Below the pieces are notes generated by a model that saw only the letters and a program-made list of their open reading frames with translations, searched no databases and was not told the DNA's origin. A DNA stretch of 64,000 nucleotides from a bacterium (GTDB lineage: Bacteria > CSSED10-310 > JAFGSJ01), in the NCBI GenBank assembly GCA_016934675.1, contig JAFGSJ010000030.1, positions 1-64,000 of the forward strand, in the 5' to 3' direction. Both the position numbers and the translations under genes were made by a program. How positions within the stretch are numbered: the stretch's first letter is position 1; every line of letters begins with the position of its first letter. Positions 130-10,982 of this stretch are shown piece after piece.

Positions 130-205
130 GACCTGACATTTTTGGGCCAGATTCGTGTCAATACATACAGAATAATGGATCGGGGTGATAATGGGGAGAG
201 ACGGA

Positions 206-1240
206 ATGGAAGAGATAAAAACCATGGGATGGGAAGTTGCCCAGGAGTTGGAGCGGGAGAAGAAAACAATTCTGGAGAGGTTGAAACCTGATAATCGGGT
301 ATTCAGAGCGGTGATGGTCGGTTTCATTGTTTTTATTCTGATATTTATGGCGAGTTGCTGGTTAGCCGGGAATCCTTTTACTGCAACGCAACGCGTGCCC
401 TCGGAGATAGTTCAGGCAAGGGGTTGGGTTGGGACCAGCCAATGGGGAATTTTTTGGTGGGTCGTCCTGATTGCAATTGTGCTGGAATTTCTCGATGCAT
501 CGGCGGGAATGGGTTATGGGACGGCAATAACGCCTTTATTGTTGATTTTGGGCTTTGATCCGATTCAAATCGTGCCGGCGGTCATGATCCAGCAGGCAAC
601 GGCCGGTCTCTTAGGTGCCTATCTGCATAATGAGTTTGGAAATGTGGAATGGCGGTTAAAGCCCATGTCCGAAACGATCAGGTTATGGTTGATTATCAGT
701 GTCATTGGCTGTTTTGCAGTTGCTTTTTCCATAACCGCCGTGTATGGTTTATTGAAGGTGGCTAAGATTTGGATAAATTTTTATGTTGCGATTTTACTGG
801 TTGGTATGGGAATCATATCGCTGATCAAGTCGAAGCGTTCCACGCATTATAATCCTCGCAAGATGTTTTTCTTTGGCGCTCTGGCTGGTTTCAACAAGGG
901 TATTGGTGGGGGAGGTTACGGCCCGGTTGTGACGGTAGGAGGACTCTTATCCGGTGTACCGGTCAAAAGTATGATGGCAGTGACTGCGTTGTCTGAAGGC
1001 TCTGTCTGTATTGTCTCGATCGTGGTTTGGTTGGCCATGCTGACCCAAGGTGTCGTCATCGATTATATTTTGTTGCCATCGATGATGCTGGGCAGCATGG
1101 TGGCTGCCGTTCTAGCTCCATATGCCACGCGGGTTTTCCCCGAGAGGGTCTGGAAGGTATTCGTGCCGATCTACTGTTGTATTCTGGCGGCATATAGTTT
1201 CTGGAAAATAATACCCGATGTCCTCAACAAATTGATGTAA
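206..1240 (+). CDS. TSUP (TauE/SafE) family membrane permease
   Basis: This is a 344-residue multi-spanning inner-membrane protein of the TSUP (TauE/SafE) superfamily, whose members export or import sulfonates, sulfite or related anions; the substrate here is unknown. After a charged cytoplasmic N-terminus of about 30 residues come a first membrane helix (about residues 33-52) and a hydrophobic block near 80-115 containing the glycine-rich motif GMGYG. A second glycine-rich loop, GIGGGGYGP, lies near residue 235; paired motifs of this kind mark the two family repeats. Start chosen at ATG 206 because GGGGAGAG (193-200) sits 5 nt upstream; ATG 191 and GTG 185 are in frame and possible. It appears monocistronic, with a gap of about 115 bp to murG. 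Confidence 0.85.
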   Translation: MEEIKTMGWEVAQELEREKKTILERLKPDNRVFRAVMVGFIVFILIFMASCWLAGNPFTATQRVPSEIVQARGWVGTSQWGIFWWVVLIAIVLEFLDASAGMGYGTAITPLLLILGFDPIQIVPAVMIQQATAGLLGAYLHNEFGNVEWRLKPMSETIRLWLIISVIGCFAVAFSITAVYGLLKVAKIWINFYVAILLVGMGIISLIKSKRSTHYNPRKMFFFGALAGFNKGIGGGGYGPVVTVGGLLSGVPVKSMMAVTALSEGSVCIVSIVVWLAMLTQGVVIDYILLPSMMLGSMVAAVLAPYATRVFPERVWKVFVPIYCCILAAYSFWKIIPDVLNKLM

Positions 1241-1355
1241 CGTTATTGTTCAGGAAAGAAAAGGGATATATAAAGCTGGGGTAATTGCTGGGTTGTGTTC
1301 TGCTCAAGAATATGCGATAATGAAGTAACACGGTGATTCTCGAGGGGCTGAAGTG

Positions 1356-3344
1356 ATGTCCGGACAGTATCGAGTTCTACTGACGGGTGGTGGCACCGGC
1401 GGTCATGTCTATCCCTGCATTTCGATTTTTACTTATTTGAATGAGCATGGTCTTATATCAGAATCTCTGTATCTGGGGGTTCAGGGTCGGGCCGAGGACC
1501 AGATCGTGCCTCGGGCGGGAATAAGTCTAGCCCATATCACATCTGCGCCTCTCGCGAGTGGTTCCCTGTTTTTTCGTTTACAAGGCATGTTATCGTTGAT
1601 ACGGGGGACTATTCAGTCTCTCAGGCAAATCATTCGTTTCAAACCGGACCTGGTGATTGCTACTGGCGGTTATGTATCGGCCCCGGTTTTACTGGCAGCA
1701 TATCTGGCCAAGTTTTTCCGAACAATAAAAATTGTGGTCGAGGAACAAAATCTGGTCCCGGGTCTGTTGAATAAGGTCGGTTCGCTCTTGGCAGATGTTG
1801 TTCTGGTAACTTTCAAGGAGAGCGTCTATTTTACCTGGGGTAAAAAAGCAGTCAATGTGGGTTATCCGCTCCGAGAGCAGTATTACACTGACCGTCCTGA
1901 TAAAGCCTCACTCAGGGCTTCCCTGGATATTCCGATTGATAAATTTGTCGTTCTGATAACGGGGGGTTCGTTGGGTGCTCGCAGTATCAATCGGGTCGTG
2001 GCCGAAAGCATGCCCGAATTGGCGAGTCTGGAACAACTTCATATCATTCATAGTATTGGCATGTCAGAAACGGATGAATACCACGCGCTCGCGGAAACGT
2101 GTTCATTGCTTGAGGCGAGTATGGGGGCACGTTTCGATCGAGATCATCTGACTGCAACCAATGACCAGGGCCAAATTTTTTATCAGGCCTTTCCCTTCAT
2201 TCATCGCATGTTCGAATACCAGATAGCCGCAGACCTGATTATCAGCCGGGCCGGGGCCGGGGCGTTGGCTGAAATTGCCGCCGTGGGTGTAGCTTCGATC
2301 ATAATACCCAAACGTGGCCTCCCCGGGGACCATCAAGAACTGAATGCCATCAACATGGCTGATCGTGGTTGTTGTTCTATCATTTTTGAAAAGAGGGATA
2401 GGCAAAGCCAACGAGACTGTGTTCCGACGGGAGAGTTTCTCGAGCTGTTGCGGGCAATGGTTACTGATCGCGCTAAAAGTCAGGAATTGGCCCACAATAT
2501 TCAAAAAATGCATGCACGGGACGCGCATCACAAAATAGTCGACACAATACAAAAAGTCTTGGCAGGTGAGGCGGTCAATTATATTGATGAGATTATCGAG
2601 CCACGTTTTGTCAAATTTCAACGTCAATTCGACCATTTGGTCGCTTACCTGGACCAGGTCAGGCAAGACAGAGACTTCGACAATCCTTATCTTCGTTATT
2701 ATTCGTTGAAAATCAGCGATTATTTACAATCTTCGGATTTTCTGGTGGTCAATAAGGGCATCAAGTTGATCGGACCGTTACAGCGTGAGGACTTATACGA
2801 ATATCTCCGAGATAATTTCCGAAATTTCAAGGGGTTCCTCCGTCGTAACAGCTTGATCAGCCTGAGAAAAGCCGACTTTTTTTCCCCGATTATGCGCCAG
2901 CTTATCGACTGGGGCCTCGCCGATTCCTACTACGAAGTGCGACGGGAAGCTATCGCTCTCGTCTACCGTTTTGTCGAGGAATATCACAATGATCCGGCAA
3001 TGAAAACAGCAGTTCGGGGCATTTTAAAGAATACATTCGAAAGTTTTGAGGTCAAGGTTGAAGCCATCAAGTTGGCCGTTGTTCTCTTTGAAGAAGGACT
3101 CTTTTTTGAGCTTGTGCAGCCCTTCCAGGGATCGCGCAATATCCGCCTGCGGGAGGCCTTACTCGAAAGTATCATAATCGGTCTGGTCCGGCAGCGATTA
3201 TCACGCGATGAACGACTGAAAATCTTTTTGAAAAACACGTTGATCACAACGTCTGAATTCAAACCTGAATTTAAGATTCGCGAGAATTATCTATCGGTCT
3301 TAAAGGAACTGGAAGGGGTCCCGAATGGTAATGCTCGTCATTGA
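1356..3344 (+). CDS. murG: MurG glycosyltransferase with a large extra C-terminal helical-repeat domain
   Basis: MurG transfers GlcNAc from UDP-GlcNAc to lipid I, making lipid II on the inner face of the cytoplasmic membrane. Residues 1 to about 390 are a complete GT28-fold MurG: the N-terminal loop GGGTGGH (near residue 10), the acceptor-side motif ATGGYVSAP, the C-domain loop GGSLGARSIN and the donor-binding stretch RAGAGALAEIAAVG followed by GDHQELNA (about 297-330). MurG is normally about 360 residues; this protein is 662. The extra 270 residues are predicted almost all helical with a recurrent HEAT/armadillo-like rhythm (for example LRRNSLISLRK, VRREAIALVYRF, VKVEAIKLAVVLF). There is no stop or frameshift at the junction. 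ATG 1356 follows GAGGGG; GTG 1353 is adjacent. The 3' end overlaps mraY by 20 bp. Confidence 0.93.
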   Translation: MSGQYRVLLTGGGTGGHVYPCISIFTYLNEHGLISESLYLGVQGRAEDQIVPRAGISLAHITSAPLASGSLFFRLQGMLSLIRGTIQSLRQIIRFKPDLVIATGGYVSAPVLLAAYLAKFFRTIKIVVEEQNLVPGLLNKVGSLLADVVLVTFKESVYFTWGKKAVNVGYPLREQYYTDRPDKASLRASLDIPIDKFVVLITGGSLGARSINRVVAESMPELASLEQLHIIHSIGMSETDEYHALAETCSLLEASMGARFDRDHLTATNDQGQIFYQAFPFIHRMFEYQIAADLIISRAGAGALAEIAAVGVASIIIPKRGLPGDHQELNAINMADRGCCSIIFEKRDRQSQRDCVPTGEFLELLRAMVTDRAKSQELAHNIQKMHARDAHHKIVDTIQKVLAGEAVNYIDEIIEPRFVKFQRQFDHLVAYLDQVRQDRDFDNPYLRYYSLKISDYLQSSDFLVVNKGIKLIGPLQREDLYEYLRDNFRNFKGFLRRNSLISLRKADFFSPIMRQLIDWGLADSYYEVRREAIALVYRFVEEYHNDPAMKTAVRGILKNTFESFEVKVEAIKLAVVLFEEGLFFELVQPFQGSRNIRLREALLESIIIGLVRQRLSRDERLKIFLKNTLITTSEFKPEFKIRENYLSVLKELEGVPNGNARH

Positions 3345-4431
3345 CTATCTCCGCTCATTGGGCATTGATTTTGGCTTTTTCAGATTGCTGAATTATATTA
3401 CTTTTCGAGCCATAATGGGTATGACAACCGCCCTGCTTTTCAGTCTGTTTTTCGGTTTTAGATATATTCTTTTCCTATACCGCAAAAAACTTCGGGATTC
3501 TTCCGGTGATATTTTGTCCTTAAAGGTATTCTCCAAGCGAGGCACACCAACCGGCGGTGGTTTACTCATTATCAGTTCAGCCCTTTTTTCATTATTGTTA
3601 TGGGCCGACTGGAACAATATATTTATGCTCGTCCTGGTTTGCGCCTTTGTCTACTTCGGGCTGGTCGGTTTTATCGATGATTTCCAGAAGAGTCGTCTCC
3701 GCTCGTCACTCTCCGGGCTCAGTCAGCTATGGAAAACGATTTTGCTGTTGCTTTTTATCGTTCCGTTCGCCCTATTCTTTGTCTCACCGGTGAACCCGGT
3801 GCCACCTGAAGTGAAAACATTGCTCTGGCTCCCCTTTTACAAATTTCCTATCCTTGAATTGAGTGCTTTCACTTTCATTCTATTCGCTATTTTTGTCCAG
3901 TTTTCAATCATAAACGCCATTAACATAACCGATGGTATGGACGGACTTCTGCCCGGTATTTCGGCACTTAATCTGGGTGTTTACGCAATTTTTGCCTACA
4001 TTATCGGCAACGCAATTGCTTCAGGGCATTACCTCTTTCCCCATATCGAGGGCGCCGGAGAAATCTCGGTCTTTGGGGCAACACTCATTGGTGCTCTGCT
4101 TGGCTTTTTATGGTTTAATACTTATCCGGCCGAGGTTTTTATGGGAGATACCGGCTCGCTCAGTATCGGGGGAGCCCTGGCAATAATGTCATTTTTTACC
4201 AAGCAAGAACTTTTGTTTCCGATCGTTGGTGGTATCTTTGTATTGGAAATTTTTTCGGCCTTGATCCAAGAAAAAGTGGGAACGCCGCTTGGACGTCGAA
4301 TATTTTACCGGGCCCCCTTTCATTACACCCTGACCCATCGGGGCATTCCGGAACCCAAAGCCGTCGTTCGGCTTTGGATTATCTCCATTCTGCTGGCCCT
4401 GGTTGCCCTTTTATCCCTGAAAGTCCGCTGA
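3325..4431 (+). CDS. mraY: Phospho-N-acetylmuramoyl-pentapeptide transferase
   Basis: MraY joins phospho-MurNAc-pentapeptide to undecaprenyl phosphate to give lipid I, the substrate of the MurG encoded just upstream. The 368-residue protein has about ten membrane helices and the cytoplasmic-loop signatures of the family: GFIDDFQKSRL near residue 115, NAINITDGMDGL near 197-208 with the catalytic aspartate, and GDTGSLSIGGALA near 273. The last loop reads PFHYTLTHRGIPEP, whereas most MraY enzymes carry a triple histidine (HHH) there; only the first histidine is kept in place and another appears four residues on. The start overlaps murG by 20 bp, so the two are probably translationally coupled. 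No murD, murC or ftsW is adjacent. Confidence 0.93.
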   Translation: MVMLVIDYLRSLGIDFGFFRLLNYITFRAIMGMTTALLFSLFFGFRYILFLYRKKLRDSSGDILSLKVFSKRGTPTGGGLLIISSALFSLLLWADWNNIFMLVLVCAFVYFGLVGFIDDFQKSRLRSSLSGLSQLWKTILLLLFIVPFALFFVSPVNPVPPEVKTLLWLPFYKFPILELSAFTFILFAIFVQFSIINAINITDGMDGLLPGISALNLGVYAIFAYIIGNAIASGHYLFPHIEGAGEISVFGATLIGALLGFLWFNTYPAEVFMGDTGSLSIGGALAIMSFFTKQELLFPIVGGIFVLEIFSALIQEKVGTPLGRRIFYRAPFHYTLTHRGIPEPKAVVRLWIISILLALVALLSLKVR

Positions 4432-8749: not shown

Positions 8750-10891
8750 TTACAGTCCCAGTTCACTTTTAACCTGATTGCCCAGGGGAATAAAAATATC
8801 ATCAATCAATTTTCCAACAATGTAACCCATGATCAGATATTTCTGCCATTGAAAAGCCTTCAGACTGAAACTTTCCACGGGTAACATGAGAAAATGAGAT
8901 TGCTTGTTGTCGATCATGGTTTGTAACGAGGTTAAACCTTGCTCGTCCCAAATTGATAGCTGTTTGGAACGTATTGCCTGCATTATTTCATCGTGTGAAT
9001 GATAAAAATGGATCATCGTTTCCAAACCATAGGCGCAGCGATGCAGGTGAAGCATAGTGCCCTCGAGGGCCAGTTCCGGACTATCGGCAGAATCCTCGCG
9101 GATCGGGATCAACAGTTGGGCCAGGATCGAACCTTCCCGATACAGGATCATATCTTCCTTGGGTTCACTTCCAATTGTTTTTTGTTCAAACTGGAGTGTG
9201 AATTTTTTGCCATTCGGTGTGATGGCCTTGGTACTGTTTGGATTAAAGGGATGACCCTTGAGTTGTTGGGTTAGATCGAAACCATACAAGGAATCGATCT
9301 TTTTAACTTTTTTCTGATAACTCAGGCTATCGGTTTCGGTCAGACATCCCAGAATCAGAAGTGAACGTGACAATAAATCGTGTTTGAAGGCACGTGATAT
9401 GAAATACATACGCTTAAGTGCCTCTTTTATCCGCAGTTCTTCCCGCCATCGAAACATATCGAGAAGGGGCGATGTTTTCCGGTCCTTTTCCGAAATACTC
9501 TCAGACAATAACCGGGACAGAAGCGTAAAAACATCGATTTCCGGGATAGTTTCAAGTTCATCCCGTAAAGATTGCACTGTGCTCGTCGGAATTTTTTCGA
9601 GTAAAACATATAAATGTTCTATTAAACGTGTCTTACGGTCCTGTAGATCATTGATTTTAGCAATGATAACATCGTTGGTCACCTGTAAAAGTTTTTCCTG
9701 CTCGGCCTGGGCGATCATTTCCTCGACATTGACCACCAGCAATCGTGTTTCGGCCGTACTTTTTCTGAACTCCTCAGCCAGATCGGTCAAATCGTTCTTG
9801 ATCAAGCTGTACTTCGTGTCCTCAAAAAAATCCTGTTGGGCAATGATTCCCAACCATTTTTTAATGGTGAGTTCCTTGGTCTTCTCACGGGTCGTTTTCT
9901 CGATCTGATCGAAAAATTCATTCTCTTTCTGTTTCATGACAGAAACAAGGATTTTCCGGATAACTGACCGCTTCTTTTGCCAGGGAAATATCTCGACCAG
10001 CCGGTCAATCCGGATTTTCCGTTCGAATGCGGATACCGATCGTATGATTTCCTCGGCCAGATCGTGCTCAAGATATTCAAATACTCTCAGATAGATGATT
10101 TTGATCAGAGGACTCAAATTGTTGATTTGTATTCCCTGGAGAAAACGAATGATAAAATCGTCCGGTTCAAGCTCGAAATCTGCATCGGTCGAATAGATTT
10201 GATGAAGCGACTTGCCCAGCAAACCATGCCCCAAATTCTGTTCGATCCAGCCGAGAAGGTTCTCCATAAAGACTTGTAAAACCGGGAAATTCTGCCGGGT
10301 GATGTGCAGGATTTGAATGGATTCATCCGATAGTTTGCACAAAGTATCAGCACCACTCATCTCTTTATCAACCAGGTCCTTCTTGGGTCCCGCTTCTCCA
10401 CCGATTGGACCTCTTGATACCTCTCCCTGCGTTGGAGAACTGAACGGGGAAGCGGAGGGAGCTTCTTTTATGATTGGGGATGGGGCGACCGAAGCGCGTT
10501 TTATTGATGCTGCTTCGTTCACAATCTGCGACAGCTTTTCGTCTCGTGTTTTATGTATTTCCTGCAGCAATTCAGACGCTGTCAATTCAAGTGTCCGGGC
10601 CTCCTGAATCTTTTCCTGAAGTGTGTGCGGGTCACTCATTCGGCCTCGCGACTCCTCGTGTTTGACTCCAGATGATTGACTCTTGGTGGTTTTTATCGAA
10701 ACCGGCGTTTTCTCGGATTGTGTCTTTTCGGAAACGGGTGGCCTTTTTTTTTGTTTCAGAAGATAATCTTCCTTCAACTGGGCCACCTGATCATTAACGG
10801 GACCACGCCTGAAAAAGATTTCTTTTAACTTTTCCAGAAACGATGTCTTAACCGGTTTTTTGACCGGTTTGTTAGTATCTTGTCTGGTCAT
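8750..10891 (-). CDS. Unknown 713-residue helical cytoplasmic protein
   Basis: I do not recognise this protein. The first 200 or so residues are charged and low-complexity (KKPVKKPVK-like start, runs of K, E, S and T), with a predicted coiled-coil patch around LQEKIQEARTLELTASELL. Residues about 200-713 look like a mostly helical globular region with no membrane segment and no catalytic motif I can name. Around residues 150-175 a Gly/Pro/Ser-rich stretch (SPFSSPTQGEVSRG) looks like a translated GC-rich palindromic repeat inserted in frame. Start set at ATG 10891 because GGTGG lies 7 nt upstream; ATG 10936 is in frame but has no ribosome site. It is the first gene of the minus-strand unit leading to udg and priA, which hints at, but does not prove, a DNA-related role. 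Confidence 0.75.
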   Translation of the reverse strand: MTRQDTNKPVKKPVKTSFLEKLKEIFFRRGPVNDQVAQLKEDYLLKQKKRPPVSEKTQSEKTPVSIKTTKSQSSGVKHEESRGRMSDPHTLQEKIQEARTLELTASELLQEIHKTRDEKLSQIVNEAASIKRASVAPSPIIKEAPSASPFSSPTQGEVSRGPIGGEAGPKKDLVDKEMSGADTLCKLSDESIQILHITRQNFPVLQVFMENLLGWIEQNLGHGLLGKSLHQIYSTDADFELEPDDFIIRFLQGIQINNLSPLIKIIYLRVFEYLEHDLAEEIIRSVSAFERKIRIDRLVEIFPWQKKRSVIRKILVSVMKQKENEFFDQIEKTTREKTKELTIKKWLGIIAQQDFFEDTKYSLIKNDLTDLAEEFRKSTAETRLLVVNVEEMIAQAEQEKLLQVTNDVIIAKINDLQDRKTRLIEHLYVLLEKIPTSTVQSLRDELETIPEIDVFTLLSRLLSESISEKDRKTSPLLDMFRWREELRIKEALKRMYFISRAFKHDLLSRSLLILGCLTETDSLSYQKKVKKIDSLYGFDLTQQLKGHPFNPNSTKAITPNGKKFTLQFEQKTIGSEPKEDMILYREGSILAQLLIPIREDSADSPELALEGTMLHLHRCAYGLETMIHFYHSHDEIMQAIRSKQLSIWDEQGLTSLQTMIDNKQSHFLMLPVESFSLKAFQWQKYLIMGYIVGKLIDDIFIPLGNQVKSELGL

Positions 10892-10982
10892 AATCGGTCC
10901 ACCCGCGCATGTGTCCTCCACGCTCATATATATCAAACAAAAACCATAAAATACAAGCCCAAAAATTTTTATCCTATTATCA

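Follow-up and report, generated by a model that had tools for sequence, protein, structure and literature searches.

To our knowledge, it is not settled whether the lipid intermediates of peptidoglycan synthesis pass from MraY to MurG and on to MurJ by free diffusion or within a complex. The three proteins act in succession on lipid I and lipid II, and free diffusion along affinity differences is one view of this passage (PMC9046198). In Bordetella, one report describes oligomeric MurG as a scaffold on which cytoplasmic Mur enzymes assemble (PMC6420597); the idea of MurG as the hub of a Mur complex is common to both cases, but the partners differ, being the cytoplasmic enzymes there and, through a dedicated extra domain, MraY and MurJ here. 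The nearest described single proteins are the MurGs covered by TIGR01133, including those of E. coli (1F0K) and P. aeruginosa (3S2U), which were the top fold and sequence matches and share both GT28 domains and the catalytic residues. By comparison, the form studied here adds a C-terminal HEAT domain and a longer segment at residues 239-285.

The window, that is, the whole stretch of 64,000 nucleotides that was analysed, carries a MurG-HEAT fusion gene of 663 aa on the forward strand (1353-3344), which starts at GTG 1353 or ATG 1356 with GAGGGG about 8-12 bases 5' of the start. The frame encodes an intact MurG (residues 1 to about 405) and runs on without interruption into a HEAT-repeat domain (about 418-653). 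Within the catalytic part (1374-2525, forward strand), Pfam and NCBIfam models place GT28 N at residues 8-150 (E 2e-28) and GT28 C at residues 199-391 (E 5e-25), and TIGR01133 aligns with residues 2-399 at 218 bits, below its curated cut-off of 250. GGGTGGH (12-18), EEQN (130-133), E307, Q328 and N331 are retained and are invariant across 36 fused proteins. With both GT28 domains, GGTGGH and the donor-site Glu/Gln/Asn, the protein is a MurG (EC 2.4.1.227) and, judged from its sequence, the predicted lipid II synthase; it is the only GT28_N (PF03033) protein in the genome (5.45 Mb, 169 contigs, 96% complete). The lengthened segment (residues 239-285; 2067-2207, forward strand) is 47 aa long and follows the HxxG motif, where fused or HEAT-linked MurGs have 33-71 aa and unfused MurGs 23-32 aa. 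Elsewhere in the window, a TauE/SafE-family transporter (PF01925, E 2e-21; 185-1240, forward strand) lies directly 5' of the fusion gene with no evident link to it, and a 728 aa protein (8750-10936, reverse strand) has no convincing Pfam match (best E 0.48).

The final 260 or so residues of the fusion protein are all-helical. In an AF2 model of the whole chain built with 35 fused homologues (mean pLDDT 91.9, pTM 0.87), the extra helices span residues 418-653 (2604-3311, forward strand) as helical hairpins, and the pTM suggests a defined MurG-HEAT arrangement. The isolated domain was modelled at pLDDT 85.7, and its nearest PDB folds were alphaRep/HEAT and PP2A-type scaffolds (Foldseek; E about 1e-3 or weaker, probability 1.0). 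Pfam HEAT_2 and HEAT models (PF13646, PF02985) match 26 and 25 of 27 domain relatives. On the other hand, the window copy alone gave no match to the Pfam HEAT models at E<=1, comparison of the HEAT sequence with PDB entries returned designed helical repeats only (E 0.28 and worse), and a viral fold search gave no match. Tandem alpha-hairpins, together with HEAT profile matches in 26 of the 27 relatives and the PDB folds, identify a HEAT-repeat protein, so that the large HEAT-like C-terminal domain proposed in the preliminary description of this locus is borne out by modelling and searching of the isolated region.

Although the domain shares stacked helical hairpins with HEAT_2/HEAT proteins, alphaRep and PP2A scaffold A, it has motifs of its own (WxxRNxGVK, GFxRRN, DPYWEVR and the tail TSTxFxPxFPIK) and, unlike other HEAT repeat proteins, a dedicated linkage to mraY. 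Three motifs can be located in the window on the forward strand: GF-x-RRN at the start of a B helix (residues 494-499; 2832-2849), near-invariant in 48 sequences; D-x-Y-x-E-V-R (524-530; 2922-2942), in which D524, Y526, E528 and R530 are invariant in the same number; and the C-terminal tail motif T-x3-F-x-P-x-F-x2-R/K (632-643; 3246-3281), which is likewise conserved. Near-invariant positions (F/W463, N467 and K471; F495, R497, R498 and N499; Y526, E528 and R530; E566; R600) fall on, or just before, every second helix of the domain model (H5, H7, H9, H11 and H13). Because the concave face of HEAT repeats is formed by the second helices of the pairs, this alternation implies a putative conserved concave groove in the modelled domain; some conserved Asp and Arg residues are structural in all HEAT repeats, and the groove argument is suggestive.

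The domain is distributed well beyond this genome. When 60 genomes were searched with the whole protein, one from another phylum (G058) proved to have a full-length counterpart, whereas members of the same phylum had the C-terminal part alone. Among 386 genomes sampled across Bacteria, a domain profile gave 29 strong matches, with mraY directly downstream in 27 of them, and a larger profile matched 31 genomes at E <= 1e-12, the weakest few of which are probably generic HEAT proteins; the domain was present in all 16 genomes examined of the phylum of G118. Moreover, a scan of GTDB contigs with a 12-row alignment as query yielded 51 named loci from a dozen or so phyla, as read from record titles in which MAG labels can be wrong. 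These titles include Latescibacterota, Zixiibacteriota, Syntrophobacterales (including Desulforhabdus sp. TSK), Gemmatimonadetes, Planctomycetota, Acidobacteria, Krumholzibacteriota, Electryonea/Hatepunaea, Glassbacteria, Delongbacteria, Aminicenantes, candidate division CSSED10-310 and others. The record of Desulforhabdus sp. TSK (L083) bears a genus name and no MAG label. The domain is fused to MurG in 43 of the 51 loci (eight with a MurJ-length middle part), forms a separate ORF in six and is cut by contig ends in two. An open junction in 43 independent named loci extends the fusion beyond the assembly in which it was noticed and rules out an assembly or frameshift artefact.

The neighbourhood is nearly constant. 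In searches with the HEAT domain alone as query, mraY lies directly downstream in 48 of the 51 loci, the others being L095, L098 and L107, the last of which is ended by the contig end; overall, the domain stands without an adjacent mraY in four genomes or records (L058/L098, L063 and L095). At least four architectures hold the domain, some of them without murG next door. In G002 and G006 it has an ORF of its own, of 300 and 268 aa, respectively, which overlaps mraY, and the murG of G002, of normal length, lies about 30 kb away beside murC; altogether, HEAT adjoins mraY with MurG unfused and elsewhere in G002, G004, G006 and G049. Since the HEAT-mraY pair persists when MurG is separate, the domain is linked to mraY and is not primarily a decoration of MurG. 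The idea of an attachment to MurG holds for the 43 fused loci, but must be widened, as the domain also stands alone beside mraY and occurs in chains that contain MurJ.

Several loci show further features. In L018, L019 and L025, the frame is extended at the N-terminus by open sequence that matches no domain. L068 (G110) has the order murG, HEAT, mraY and a weak HEAT match; its MurG lacks the insert and falls outside the fused clade, yet its MraY has an altered loop E (PMHHSLQ), which makes it a possible intermediate or independent case. By eye, the gene before murG-HEAT in G058 is sugar/aminoglycoside-kinase-like (AmgK-like; L003, 3453-4529, reverse strand), and the one before HEAT-mraY in G002, as in G006, is glycosidase-like (L033, 4550-5797, reverse strand), hinting at wall recycling near the HEAT unit.

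In the window, mraY (3325-4431, forward strand) overlaps the 3' end of the fusion gene, with AAGGGG just upstream, and the two genes are likely to be translationally coupled. The genome's Mur ligase and MurJ matches are on other contigs, apart from this two-gene unit. The DDD aspartates of MraY are kept, and FIDD (118-119) and FMGDTGS are present. As the protein is the only PF00953 member of the genome and passes the curated model TIGR00445 (250 bits against a cut-off of 192), it is retained as a predicted variant MraY subfamily member. What sets it apart is loop E (4312-4344, forward strand), where APFHYTLTHRG replaces the canonical APxHHHxExxG, so that P-F-H-Y-T-L-T stands in place of PxHHHxE. 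The HHH motif is highly conserved and belongs to 13 MraY-specific residues with a proposed role in UDP-MurNAc-pentapeptide specificity (PMC5039524), and nucleoside inhibitors are contacted by H325 in the Aquifex enzyme (PMC6606608).

The same changes recur across the family. Long-branch rows aside, 55 HEAT-linked MraYs were compared with 39 others: 53 of the former lack the third His of PxHHHxE, which all 39 of the latter have. In the HEAT-linked form, moreover, Gln mostly takes the place of the loop-E Glu and RAP mostly that of MAP, and there is no longer a His ahead of KxGTPTMGG. Within CSSED10-310, loop E is canonical in G001 and G003, which have no HEAT domain, and altered in G002, G004 and G006 (separate HEAT) and in the window (fused HEAT). 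In L051 and L054 (G270 and G134), the HEAT-linked MraYs are about 485 residues long and their MraY matches break at residues 191 and 280, as would be expected from an insertion of some 90 residues.

Phylogenetic analysis gave a corresponding picture for both enzymes, in trees that are quick searches with SH-aLRT support only and no bootstraps. A total of 46 fused MurGs and three HEAT-adjacent unfused MurGs form one separate group (SH-aLRT 100), and a single branch (support 100, length 0.50) divides 56 HEAT-linked from 49 other MraYs. The no-HEAT MraY sample, which is not exhaustive, at first held only the best-scoring sequences, and the split held when 20 lower-scoring ones were added against bias. 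The closest MurG to that of the window comes from another phylum (G085), the other CSSED10-310 MurGs are placed elsewhere in the tree, and grouping with these phylum-mates is disfavoured (p-AU 0.023), which points to transfer or replacement of the unit in this lineage.

The lipid II flippase MurJ forms part of the chain as well in about nine genomes. These long fusions are open frames of 1260-1480 aa with PF03023 between MurG and HEAT, as checked with Pfam in L082, L085, L113 and G321 (L219; a protein of 1316 aa), and L090, L095, L114, L115 and L118 were assigned by the same length and layout. mraY follows every such locus except L095. Since MraY, MurG and MurJ act successively on lipid I and lipid II, the neighbour and the proteins fused to the domain represent consecutive steps of one pathway. 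Between MurG and MurJ, about 110 extra residues (L082, L085, L090, L095, L113-L115, L118 and L219) carry the pattern xxGxSxxxDIxL ... VNG ... GDxIxIG, which looks FHA-like by eye; Pfam gave no FHA match, and this reading was not kept.

Based on these observations, we consider it probable (roughly 60%) that the domain docks on MraY as an adaptor and thereby assembles a complex for lipid I and lipid II synthesis, to which MurG, and sometimes MurJ, has been added by fusion. A HEAT-repeat adaptor family that specifically serves the membrane steps in making peptidoglycan precursors would dock on the cytoplasmic face of a distinct MraY subfamily, probably via the conserved concave groove and perhaps around the altered loop E. 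Fusion to MurG would set the lipid II synthase beside the lipid I synthase, with lipid I going directly from MraY to MurG, and MurJ in the same chain would couple flipping to synthesis in some lineages. The computations establish the fusion and its fold, the all but constant mraY neighbour, the one MurG clade and one MraY split, the changed motifs and the MurG-MurJ-HEAT chains; physical binding, the binding face and substrate hand-off are what we infer. MraY is the most likely ligand of the groove because it is the constant element across architectures. Support comes from the position of mraY in both surveys (48/51 and 27/29), from the HEAT-mraY pairs that persist with MurG elsewhere, from the single branch between HEAT-linked and other MraYs, from the loop-E change that tracks HEAT within the window's phylum, from the pTM of 0.87, from the near-invariant residues on alternating helices, from the HEAT-linked MurG clade with its distinct insert, and from the fusion of the next pathway member, MurJ. 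Counting against it are the single-branch splits, the four genomes or records without an adjacent mraY, the general structural role of some of the conserved Asp and Arg positions, and the quick trees.

The separate HEAT genes beside mraY, with MurG elsewhere, would also be expected if the domain were a regulatory or structural subunit that completes the active site of this MraY subfamily and compensates for lost loop-E residues, with MurG fusion secondary and no channelling. The joint change of loop E and of the His before GTPTMGG together with HEAT would fit this explanation as well; however, MurG and MurJ have repeatedly been added to the same chain, and the MurG insert is common to the linked clade, which makes it rather unlikely. 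The MurG clade and the MraY split can also be read in another way: each is one branch, and the correlated changes could reflect one ancestral event kept by descent. An inherited operon with a near-neutral fusion, sharing no mechanism and with a domain that only stabilises MurG or holds it at the membrane, would be expected to leave HEAT-linked MurGs and MraYs as one group each. Nevertheless, gene order and R498, D524, Y526, E528 and R530 are kept in deeply divergent lineages and at least four architectures, also where no murG adjoins, and this explanation is less probable still.

A scaffold recruiting MraY, MreB or divisome partners had been suggested in the preliminary description. A scaffold role may be right, and its MraY part agrees with the adjacency in 48 of 51 loci; for MreB and the divisome, no supporting linkage was seen in the conserved immediate neighbours, and their recruitment to MurG was set aside as the main role. 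Protein binding is a common role of HEAT repeat scaffolds. In addition, according to a reference listed in PMC5039524, E. coli MurG reportedly forms complexes with proteins of elongation and division. Yet the neighbour that is conserved is MraY and the domain is fused to MurG and MurJ, and a stand-alone HEAT protein without an adjoining MurG would not recruit MurG, leaving this the most improbable of the explanations.

The HEAT domain is a real and widespread family of the lipid II pathway, with a putative mechanism, and apparently an undescribed one. This last statement is provisional, as a literature search of limited subscription coverage returned no paper with MurG, MraY and HEAT repeat together, and no title or abstract listed for MurG/MurJ fusions, or for HEAT repeats or scaffolds that take part in making peptidoglycan, described the domain; the architecture may already stand in domain databases as an automatic entry. 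A tentative extension of the adaptor reading, somewhat short of even odds, is that lipid II is made by a second type of machinery, defined by a so far undescribed adaptor subunit: the HEAT protein would physically unite MraY, MurG and, in some lineages, MurJ in a single complex for synthesis and flipping, and loop E of MraY would be remodelled to accept it. Natural covalent MurG-adaptor or MurG-MurJ-adaptor proteins, together with the matching MraY subfamily, provide constructs for a direct test of substrate hand-off. Moreover, HEAT-linked MraYs differ in residues of the loop-E region that contacts nucleoside antibiotics, and the sensitivity of this MraY subfamily to inhibitors may therefore differ.
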